A DNA stretch of 64,000 nucleotides, from assembly GCF_013376005.1 (NCBI RefSeq), contig NZ_JABMJK010000009.1, positions 62,001-126,000 on the forward strand, in the 5' to 3' direction. A program made the translations under genes and the position numbers. Numbering within the stretch: the first letter of the stretch is position 1; every line of letters starts with the position of its first letter. The stretch comes from Duganella sp. SG902 (GTDB taxonomy: Bacteria; Pseudomonadota; Gammaproteobacteria; Burkholderiales; Burkholderiaceae_D). Under the pieces are notes generated by a model, which was given only the letters and a program-made list of their open reading frames with translations, searched no databases and was not told the origin of the DNA. Positions 5,728-18,515 of this stretch are shown piece by piece.

Positions 5728-5814
5728 TCGGGGTCAGCTCTGACATTCGGACATCGGGGAACTAAAAATTTTGCAAAAGTTCCGCAAGTGTCCGATTGCC
5801 AGAGCTGACCCCGA
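5728..5814. repeat. GGGGTCAG inverted-repeat element, copy A
   Basis: A 26-bp left arm (5728-5753) begins TCGGGGTCAGCTCTGACA and matches the reverse complement of 5789-5814 at 24 of 26 positions. The 35-bp loop holds a nested GGAACT/AGTTCC stem. A second copy with the same arms but another loop is at 15887-15979. It begins 4 bp after the SDR stop codon. Confidence 0.85.
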
Positions 5815-15849: not shown

Positions 15850-15886
15850 GCCGCCATTTTAACGGACTGCGGCCCACCCCACCGAT

Positions 15887-15979
15887 TCGGGGTCAGCTCT
15901 GACATTCGGACAAATAAAAAACGTATTGATATTTCTCAAATACCGTGCGTCCGTGTCCGAATGTCAGAGCTGACCCCGA
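15887..15979. repeat. GGGGTCAG inverted-repeat element, copy B
   Basis: The 26-bp arms at 15887-15912 and 15954-15979 are perfect reverse complements and start TCGGGGTCAGCTCTGACA. The left arm equals copy A at 5728 over all 26 bp. The loop contains a GTATT/AATAC pairing. It lies between tcdA and the hemerythrin-PdxH gene. Confidence 0.9.
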
Positions 15980-16034
15980 ACTTGCTGGTGAGTTATTCTA
16001 AAATATCGTTGTTACCAGCCAGAGGCCCCACGCC

Positions 16035-17270
16035 ATGAGCAATTCCTTGTACGACACCGCCCCCGACTTCAGCCAGCCGATCGCTGTGCTGAAGCATTGC
16101 CACGACCGCATCCGCAAGCAGCTGGCCACCCTGCAAAACCTGCTGGCCCACCTGCCCAAGCATGGCGCCGATACCGACGCTCAAAAGGCCGCGCAAGCGG
16201 TGCTGAAATACTTTAACAACGCCGCCCATCTGCACCACCAGGACGAGGAGCAGAACCTGCTGCCGATGCTGCAGGCCACCGCGCGCGACGCCGATGCGCT
16301 GCTGCTGGCGGAGTTGACGCCCGGCATTCTGGCCGGTCACGAGCAAATGGATAGAGACTGGTCTATAATCAAATCGCAACTTGAGCAGATTGCCAATGGC
16401 GCCGGTTCCGCCCTCTCGGCCAGCGATGTCGCCCGTTTCTGCGACACCTACGCGGCCCACATGGTGGTGGAGGAGTCGCATATCGCGCCGATGGCCAAGC
16501 GCCTGTTCAGCGCCGAGCAAATGGCGCAGCTGGGCAGCGCGATGCAGGTGCGGCGCGGGATCACCCCCGACCTGCCAATCAGCCAGGTGCCCGAACAACA
16601 AACCGCGCCGGTCAACAACACGGTGGCCGACGGCGTGGTGCTGGCCGACCTGCGTCTCGACTACGGCCGCGCCAGCCTGACGGAACACGATGTGCTGGAC
16701 GATCCGATCGCCCAGTTTGGCAAATGGTTCGAGGAAGCCCTGCACGCCAAGGTCAACGAGCCCAACGCGATGAGCGTGGCGACGGTGGGCGCGGACGGCA
16801 AGCCGAGCTCGCGCATTGTCCTGATCAAGCAGTACGACCAGCGCGGCTTCACGTGGTATACCAATTATGAGAGCCAGAAAGGCCAGCAACTGCGCGCCAA
16901 CCCGCATGCCGCGTTGCTATTCTTTTGGAGTGAACTTGAGCGCCAGGTGCGGATCGAAGGTAAGGTGGTGCGAACCGCCGCCGAGGAAAGCGACAAGTAT
17001 TTTTACAGCCGGCCGGTGAAGAGCCAGATCGCCGCGATCGCCTCGCGGCAGAGCGCGCCCATCGCCAACCGGGAGCAGATGGAAGCCAATTACGAGGCGG
17101 CCGCCGCCGTCAGCGGCGAGCGTCCGCTGCGGCCGGCGCACTGGGGCGGTTACCGCCTCGAACCGGAGCGCATCGAGTTCTGGCAGGGCCGCCGCTCGCG
17201 CTTCCATGATCGGATTGTGTATGTCAAGCAGGCAGATGGCAACTGGATAAAGGAGCGATTGCAGCCGTAA
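16035..17270 (+). CDS. pdxH: hemerythrin HHE domain fused to pyridoxamine 5'-phosphate oxidase
   Basis: A single uninterrupted frame of 411 residues. Residues about 15-165 are a hemerythrin HHE bundle with ligand-type residues in HCHDR (21-25), HLHHQDEEQ (65-73), GHEQMDRDW (101-109) and HMVVEESHI (142-150). A linker (about 170-202) leads to a complete PNPOx domain (about 203-411): [51 protein letters not shown] and [13 protein letters not shown], matching the FMN- and PLP-binding order of E. coli PdxH. PdxH oxidises PNP/PMP to PLP using O2. No stop or strong internal ribosome site separates the parts. The role of the O2/iron-binding domain is unknown. Confidence 0.92.
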
Positions 17271-17303: not shown

Positions 17304-18515
17304 TTGTTCGTACAGAATCAACTGAGCAACTGGATCGCCGGCATGCGCGAGCAGCTCACGCTGCCGCTGCGCATTGAGTTGTGGAACGGCCAGCACGTCG
17401 ACCTGTCCAGCGAGGCGCCGCGCGTGACCATCAAGCTGCCCAATGTGAAGGCGGCGCGCTACCTGCTAACGCCGTCGCTGTCCAATCTGGGCGCCGCCTA
17501 CGTCGAGGGCGCCATCGAGGTCCGCGGCAAGGCGCGCGACATGATCGCCGTGGTCAACGCGCTGGCCCGCACCTCGCTCAAGGCCGAGGGCAAGTTCGCG
17601 CGGCTGGCGCGCACCTTCCATCACAGCAAGCAGAAGGACGCCGAGGCGATCCGCTATCACTACGACGTCTCCAACGAGTTCTACCAGCAGTTCCTCGATC
17701 CCGACATGGTGTATTCCTGCGCCTACTTTGAGAACGGCGACGAGGACCTGGCCAGCGCGCAACTCAAGAAGATCGACCACATCCTGCGCAAGATCGAGCT
17801 GCGCCCCAACCAGACCCTGCTCGACATCGGCTGCGGCTGGGGCGCGCTGGTGATCCGCGCGGCCCGGCGCTACAACGCGCGCTGCGTCGGCGTCACGCTG
17901 TCGGAGAACCAGTACGCGCTCGCCAGGCAGCGCGTGCGCGAGGCCGGGCTGGAGCATCTGGTCGAGATCCGCCTGCAGGATTACCGCGACGTGCGCGGCC
18001 AGTTCGACCGCATCACCAGCGTCGGCATGTTCGAGCACGTGGGCCTGCGCCATTTGCCCGAGTATTTCTCCGCCATCCACAGCCTGCTGGCGCCCGACGG
18101 CGTGGTGATGAACCACGGCATCACCACCACCGATCCGGACAACGGCGAAACGCCCTACGGCGGCGGCGAGTTCATTGAAAAATATGTGTTCCCGCACGGC
18201 GAGCTGGCCCATATCGGCCACGTGCTGCGCGCCATGCAGCAGGGCGCGCTGGAGGTCAGCGACGTGGAAAATCTGCGCCGCCACTACGCCCGCACCTGCG
18301 CCATCTGGACCGACAATTTCGAAGCGCATGGCGACCAGGTGCGCGCGCTGGGCGGGGATAAGCGCTACCGCATCTGGCATGTGTACCTGGCCGGCTGCGC
18401 CTATGCGTTCGAGCAGGATTGGATCAGCCTGTACCAGATCGTCGGCCGCAAGGCGGGCCAGCGCTCGGCCGCGCTGCCGTGGTCACGCAAGCATATGTAT
18501 CCGGCCGCTACCTGA
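17304..18515 (+). CDS. cfa: cyclopropane-fatty-acyl-phospholipid synthase
   Basis: SAM-dependent enzyme of 403 residues that adds a methylene bridge to unsaturated membrane lipids. The start is a TTG at 17304, chosen because a perfect AAGGAGGAT lies five bases upstream; the next ATG is 13 codons in with no such site. The SAM loop LLDIGCGWG is at residues 172-180, followed by GVTLSENQ, MFEHVG and the YIFPGGELP-like segment (KYVFPHGELAH). Its end overlaps the convergent msrA by 8 bp. Confidence 0.93.
   Translation: MFVQNQLSNWIAGMREQLTLPLRIELWNGQHVDLSSEAPRVTIKLPNVKAARYLLTPSLSNLGAAYVEGAIEVRGKARDMIAVVNALARTSLKAEGKFARLARTFHHSKQKDAEAIRYHYDVSNEFYQQFLDPDMVYSCAYFENGDEDLASAQLKKIDHILRKIELRPNQTLLDIGCGWGALVIRAARRYNARCVGVTLSENQYALARQRVREAGLEHLVEIRLQDYRDVRGQFDRITSVGMFEHVGLRHLPEYFSAIHSLLAPDGVVMNHGITTTDPDNGETPYGGGEFIEKYVFPHGELAHIGHVLRAMQQGALEVSDVENLRRHYARTCAIWTDNFEAHGDQVRALGGDKRYRIWHVYLAGCAYAFEQDWISLYQIVGRKAGQRSAALPWSRKHMYPAAT

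Follow-up and report, generated by a model that had tools for sequence, protein, structure and literature searches.

A hemerythrin-like HHE domain fused in frame to the pyridoxine-5'-phosphate oxidase PdxH in Duganella and related bacteria

Introduction

PdxH uses FMN and O2 to oxidise PNP or PMP, releasing H2O2, and the PLP that it makes is needed by many enzymes. Reactions with O2, NO or H2O2 are known from hemerythrin-like diiron sites. In Duganella sp. SG902 both kinds of domain appeared to be encoded by one gene, which raises the question of whether such a fusion is real, how it arose, and what a hemerythrin-type domain might do beside this oxidase. We addressed this question in a stretch of 64,000 nucleotides, called the window below (contig NZ_JABMJK010000009.1, positions 62,001 to 126,000, forward strand), to which all positions refer, and in the genomes of related bacteria.

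Results

The fusion gene and its layout

The hhe-pdxH fusion is a single open frame on the forward strand of the window (16035-17270, stop included), with an ATG start, 411 amino acids and no internal stop. A ribosome-site-like motif, GAGG (16022-16025, forward strand), can be read from the sequence 9 nt upstream of the ATG. Residues 1-174 (16035-16556) form the hemerythrin/HHE domain and its C-terminal helix, a helical bundle in the AlphaFold model, of which residues 15-154 matched the Pfam profile Hemerythrin PF01814 with 45.4 bits, the cut-off being 25.3. The motifs HCHDR (21-25), HLHHQDEE (65-72), GHEQMDRD (101-108) and HMVVEESHI (142-150) lie in this domain. It is followed by a variable linker, residues 175-202 (16557-16640), where model confidence is low from residue 185 on, and by the PdxH domain, residues 203-411 (16641-17267), in which profiles and alignment recognised an N-terminal lid motif of its own (R207, Y210) and the FMN/substrate residue set. 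Pfam placed PNPOx_N at residues 233-357 (98.4 bits) and PNP_phzG_C at 370-411 (71.6 bits), and the NCBIfam pdxH equivalog TIGR00558 was matched over its full model (1-190 of 190) by residues 223-411, with 261.3 bits against a cut-off of 180. An earlier note, made from the letters of this DNA, had described an in-frame fusion with a complete PdxH and hemerythrin ligand motifs; the open frame, the Pfam and NCBIfam profiles and the motif positions bear it out on all three points. The fusion is real: a single protein joins an HHE domain, a loose linker and PdxH.

The AlphaFold model of the fusion comprises a confident HHE bundle and a confident PdxH barrel. Confidence was low for residues 1-9, 185-213 (pLDDT below 50, lid pair included) and 386-390, and the pTM was 0.50, so that the model does not fix how the two domains are arranged relative to each other.

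The same note had advised looking for a standalone pdxH elsewhere, and no second PdxH was found in the genome of Duganella sp. SG902; another PF10590 match, on contig C26, reached 13.1 bits, below the cut-off of 27. The fusion is therefore expected to make the cell's PLP. HHE matches above the Pfam cut-off numbered six in this genome, the fusion's own HHE included.

Downstream of the fusion, 33 bp away on the same strand and behind an AAGGAGG, lies a cyclopropane-fatty-acid-synthase-like (CMAS) gene (17304-18515), possibly co-transcribed with it. Of the 37 named fused loci, 35 likewise have a CMAS-type gene next on the same strand, and 25 have a gene for methionine sulfoxide reductase nearby, in flanks of up to 4 kb. 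This neighbourhood gives a mild hint as to function. On the upstream side, between a ThiF-family gene and the fusion, we observed a palindromic repeat element (15886-15980; 26-bp arms at 15886-15911 and 15955-15980) that ends 54 bp before the ATG and recurs at window positions 5730-5812 and at locus L171. With up to 2 mismatches allowed, the 23-base core of the arm has 35 forward and 36 reverse copies in the genome, most of them in facing pairs; between the arms of one pair, about 1 kb apart, lies a Y1_Tnp transposase gene. From these facing pairs, one with its Y1_Tnp gene, the element looks like a member of a REP/RAYT-type family. In the stretches examined of the named relatives (L033-L070), a search allowing up to 3 mismatches did not find the arm.

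Distribution of fused and unfused forms

The whole fusion protein was searched against 392 genomes of the window's family. The initial search listed 150 match rows, all of them full-length (from residue 1-9 to 411) and stop-free, and 223 genomes were rescored in sets of 68, 75 and 80, two of the 68 being also among the 150 full-length rows. Some match was present in 372 genomes and none in 20. The fusion has an open frame in 172 of the 392 genomes and a broken frame in two (G222, and G238, which is 48% complete). In 86 genomes hhe lies directly upstream of pdxH on one strand as a separate gene, a number that includes 23 rows read through a stop and the partial or damaged copies of G046, G088, G102, G308 and G332. 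A pdxH without detected hhe was scored in 110 genomes (110 of the 372 with a match), some of which may reflect contig breaks (G016, G095). One genome has hhe alone (G087) and one was left unclassified (G261). The 110 genomes with pdxH and no detected hhe indicate that HHE is not required for PdxH as such.

With 172 open-frame copies, one per species genome, a frameshift or an assembly artefact is ruled out, and no stop or frameshift of the kind that the earlier note had named as fatal to the fusion is seen in these assembled copies. The named fused loci (n=37, L033-L069) belong to Duganella, Rugamonas, Pseudoduganella, Massilia and two records named only Oxalobacteraceae; the nearest named relative among those listed is Duganella radicis, at 95% identity.

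In the genus codes where the fusion prevails (g1, g4, g6, g12 and g19), no adjacent unfused pair was seen except the frame-broken G222 and G238. Two g6 genomes whose fellow members are fused, G342 and G354, carry pdxH alone, at 56-57% identity to the window's PdxH, which implies that a fusion may lose its HHE part or be replaced as a whole gene; for these two genomes the candidate causes are loss of HHE, substitution of a different pdxH and a binning error. Three other cases were recorded on the way. G019 carries a diverged fusion of 54% identity (C141:16441-17658, L107) together with a standalone pdxH (C181:51685-52314). All 13 genomes of genus code g7 (e.g. G006, G049, G073; 1.2-2.6 Mb) lack a PdxH or HHE match. 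At locus L114, in a family genome of 1.7 Mb (G102), stops lie inside or near hhe and pdxH is open, perhaps a decaying hhe beside a retained pdxH.

Outside the family, 18 of 106 members of the order had both kinds of match, and in none of the 18 were they adjacent; a class sample of 114 genomes contained no fused or adjacent case except the window itself. A linkage of hhe and pdxH as an order-wide feature was thus not seen.

Origin of the fusion

In the unfused pairs that were examined, no more than 108 bp separate the stop of hhe from the PdxH core codon. Some pairs overlap by an ATGA (e.g. L129), and others are in the same frame with a single stop between them. In Undibacterium terreum, hhe (177 aa) and pdxH (211 aa) are 28 bp apart, with a ribosome-site-like motif.

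Two trees were built. On the tree of HHE and PdxH combined, which comes from a quick search and is unrooted, without outgroup, with the 59 fused rows thinned to 33 and L114 and L115 left out, one branch of moderate support (SH-aLRT 83) splits the 33 fused from the 36 adjacent rows. A single change of state is thus needed, against a mean of 23 when the labels were shuffled. The PdxH-only tree (99 rows, 24 of them fused after thinning) is weakly resolved, and there the fused rows need two changes, because the pdxH-only rows L116 and L121 fall beside fused rows. The states "pdxH only" and "adjacent" alternate on this tree, each changing 11 times, a pattern consistent with hhe having been lost repeatedly. 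A single origin of the fusion is the simplest reading, given moderate tree support: judging from the tree, one fusion event would have joined the neighbouring genes when the stop that separated hhe from pdxH was lost.

Translation as one polypeptide

The linker measures 8 to 46 aa (median 28) among 58 distinct fused copies, and is rich in Ala, Val, Pro and Gln. We searched 58 distinct fused junctions, left after 27 of 85 fused loci had been dropped as duplicates, for a start of translation ahead of PdxH. In none of them do the 25 codons upstream of the PdxH core contain an ATG preceded by a ribosome-site-like motif, compared to 26 of 39 adjacent loci (rows that include the frame-broken fusion L115, the damaged hhe of L114 and one genome twice, as L119 and L136). 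Such a motif precedes a GTG in 7 of the 58 fused junctions and a TTG in one. The window's own linker has no internal ATG, and its GTG codons, at residues 185, 197, 201 and 202, are without the motif. Lacking an ATG with ribosome site before PdxH, the fused copies most likely produce PdxH only as the fusion. That PdxH is translated on its own, from a start inside the frame, was raised by the earlier note as a possible objection and is not supported, though 8 of the 58 junctions keep a GTG or TTG with the motif; the test on ATG starts, at 0 of 58, leaves the fusion standing.

Over eight pairs, dN/dS was 0.10-0.28 for HHE, 0.18-1.06 for the linker, which is short, and 0.06-0.11 for PdxH. As judged from these comparisons, both domains are under purifying selection.

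The PdxH domain

The FMN and substrate positions of human and E. coli PNPOx were placed on the fusion by alignment. R260, K265, K282, R303, S330, Q339, S340, W383, R389, H391 and R393 are identical in all 59 fused rows, as is the lid residue R207. Y210, Y322 and R326 are kept in 58 of 59 (with Phe, Asn and Gln, respectively, in one row each), and Q281 is variable. The fusion model fitted E. coli PdxH (1jnw) with a Foldseek TM score of 0.91 by target length, at 41% identity. These residues suggest that pyridoxine-5'-phosphate oxidase activity is intact.

The HHE domain and its predicted iron site

Ligand conservation was counted in 59 distinct fused rows and 38 adjacent rows. Ten HHE residues, H21, H23, H67, H68, E71, E72, H102, H142, E146 and E147, are identical in all 59 fused rows, and the adjacent rows, 38 in all, show at most one departure per residue (a gap, and a Lys in place of E72). 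Six of them, H23, H68, E72, H102, H142 and E146, are probable iron ligands and sit on four helices of the HHE-only model (mean pLDDT 93). The YtfE diiron ligands are residues 84/129/133/160/204/208 (PMC9268430). The spacing in the fusion, 23/68/72/102/142/146, agrees with this 4-His/2-Glu pattern of RIC/YtfE, an agreement of pattern with iron being predicted. We infer from these residues that the HHE domain would hold a YtfE-like diiron site.

Similarity to the RIC family by profile is weak. The HHE domain scored 25.1 bits on TIGR03652, below its cut-off of 204.7, and 15 of 16 members of set A2 matched this profile at E 0.001 or better. The PA2171 profile also gave a weak match, far below cut-off. 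No ScdA_N, a domain present in most RIC/YtfE members, was found in the N-terminal half, where Hemerythrin is the only Pfam match (E up to 0.01).

The signature of O2-binding hemerythrins, H-HxxxE-HxxxH-HxxxxD (PMC9388753), is absent from the domain. Residue 106 is Asp in 47 and Glu in 12 of the 59 fused rows, never His, and the last position is occupied by Glu147, five after H142, not by Asp. Among the 38 unfused rows, residue 106 is His in 4. The domain was rejected as an O2-carrier hemerythrin on account of this ligand set. The idea that it binds O2, also in the earlier note, is weakened accordingly, the invariant residues fitting RIC/YtfE instead (PMC9388753, PMC9268430).

Two glutamates, E125 and E159, are key to iron donation by YtfE (PMC8117158). 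By spacing, a presumed mapping, the place of E125 is taken by Ala64, invariant in 97 of 97 rows. That of E159 is taken by residue 101, where Glu stands in 27 of 38 unfused and 5 of 59 fused rows. The invariant Ala64 and the scarcity of Glu at 101 in fused rows do not favour iron donation by the fusion. Residue 101 (16335-16337), just before H102, was seen as Asp in 27, Gly in 18, Gln in 9 and Glu in 5 of the 59 fused rows; this shift is possibly a change beside the iron site after fusion, counted in rows that ignore kinship.

Discussion

A proposed working of the fusion

The structural and evolutionary part of our best explanation we regard as almost certain. As to function, the strongest evidence for a link is that the two genes lie side by side, unfused, in 86 genomes of the family. 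Of the readings considered, we favour one in which a diiron HHE domain is held beside PdxH, which takes O2 and releases H2O2, and would react with this peroxide, or with O2 or NO nearby. Such a reaction would protect the cell, the flavin or the PLP that is made. The flexible tether would place the putative diiron site next to the source of peroxide, and a linker that is long, variable and poorly ordered makes a tether more plausible than a rigid conformational switch. A precedent for H2O2 chemistry is the hemerythrin-like protein of Mycobacterium kansasii, a NO peroxidase and weak catalase (PMC8913304). The whole chain, from one fusion event through an intact oxidase to a diiron HHE tethered to the H2O2-making PdxH and reacting with peroxide, O2 or NO, is possible, yet on balance somewhat doubtful. 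More broadly, HHE-PdxH may be an iron- and redox-aware B6 oxidase, its HHE destroying the H2O2 of PdxH or gating PdxH by oxidation state, so that the last step to PLP would depend directly on iron, peroxide or NO; we hold this to be only just short of probable. A putative tie of PLP synthesis to oxygen supply is possible.

Alternative explanations

Of two main rivals, the first has the redox or iron state of HHE control PdxH, by analogy with signalling enzymes linked to hemerythrin. There are known fusions of hemerythrin with an enzyme in which catalysis depends on redox state (PMC9388753), and since HHE precedes the PdxH lid, with R207 and Y210 kept, contact between them could affect access of substrate. 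However, a variable linker of 8-46 aa with low model confidence is poorly suited to a rigid switch, HHE and PdxH are separate proteins in 86 genomes, and the canonical sensor ligand set is not found here. Such gating we consider unlikely. The second main rival is that the fusion reflects co-expression and nothing more: two adjacent genes lost the stop between them and the product was tolerated, each domain working alone. Where unfused, the two genes do lie close together, at some loci in one frame and separated by a single stop, the linker resembles spacer sequence, and neighbour pairs and fusions can arise from co-expression by itself. Yet there should be a reason why 86 genomes of the family retain the pair unfused, when it is adjacent in 0 of 18 outside the family. 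The fused genus codes g1, g4, g6, g12 and g19 are also without an adjacent unfused pair, bar the frame-broken G222 and G238, but pdxH stands alone in G342 and G354 of g6. On this evidence co-expression as the sole explanation does not seem likely.

Two further roles start from the iron site. The cysteine desulfurase IscS needs PLP, and HHE might donate iron as YtfE does, with PdxH supplying the PLP of IscS, in the service of iron-sulphur assembly. YtfE binds IscS and IscU and donates iron (PMC8117158), HHE weakly resembles the RIC profile (E 0.001 or better for 15 of 16 members of A2), and 27 of 38 unfused rows have Glu at residue 101, the presumed counterpart of YtfE E159. Among the 59 fused rows, however, only 5 have this Glu; the presumed counterpart of E125, crucial for iron release, is Ala64 in 97 of 97 rows, and the RIC profile gives 25.1 of 204.7 bits. 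We therefore find this role very unlikely. Finally, HHE might bind O2 and feed the flavin oxidase at low oxygen, as was suggested for single-domain hemerythrins with oxygenases or respiratory oxidases (French 2008, as reported in PMC2556348). Against this, the O2-carrier motif is missing: residue 106 is Asp (47) or Glu (12) in the 59 fused rows, and His in 4 of 38 unfused rows. Delivery of O2 thus appears extremely unlikely.

Comparison with known systems

In the open literature, covered by titles and the starts of abstracts, no paper was found that joins hemerythrin with PdxH in one protein; domain-architecture databases were outside the scope of this search, and an earlier listing there is possible. 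PMC4694148 (sigF regulon) and PMC12604733 (infection screen) contain both terms, and by title neither is about such a protein. The main text of a survey of PLP pathways (PMC9997740) has no word beginning with "fusion" or "hemerythrin", and that of two hemerythrin surveys (PMC2556348, PMC4919030) has no "pyridox"; their architecture figures and tables, among them the 56 architectures of the S2 figure of PMC4919030, were only partly covered.

The oxidase half of HHE-PdxH resembles PdxH proteins (TIGR00558; E. coli 1jnw and 1g76; human PNPO 1nrg) in its whole domain, its active-site residues and its fold. The solved relatives listed are without HHE, whereas in the fusion HHE and a linker precede PdxH. 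For the other half, the closest solved structure is NMB1532 of Neisseria meningitidis (2p0n; E 1e-14 by sequence, TM 0.93 by target length, rmsd 1.4), whose residues align with HHE at the probable ligand positions. Unlike the fusion, NMB1532 is a chain of 172 residues without PdxH, with no assigned function. The RIC family (YtfE, ScdA) has in common with HHE the 4-His/2-Glu pattern and a like spacing (PMC9268430). It differs in that the fusion is without ScdA_N, scores below the profile cut-off and has not kept the iron-channel Glu; by fold, ScdA ranks low (E 1.6). In the bacterial hemerythrin-enzyme sensors Bhr-DGC and Bhr-HD-GYP, a hemerythrin domain is followed by an enzyme, as in the fusion (PMC9388753). 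These are signalling enzymes with a canonical 5-His/Glu/Asp set, whereas the fusion carries a biosynthetic flavoenzyme and another ligand set.

HHE-PdxH thus belongs to the known hemerythrin-enzyme chimeras, and its combination of HHE with PdxH is new as far as the literature was searched. It also points to a candidate role for hemerythrin-like proteins of the NMB1532 kind, which have a solved structure and no assigned function. We know of no other biosynthetic flavoenzyme with a dedicated hemerythrin-type partner, so that HHE-PdxH would be the first, if it is indeed iron- and redox-aware. It would then have evolved from a two-gene pair whose unfused form survives for comparison. The fused lineage, together with relatives that keep the genes side by side, makes a natural experiment on how B6 synthesis is tied to oxygen, peroxide or iron.
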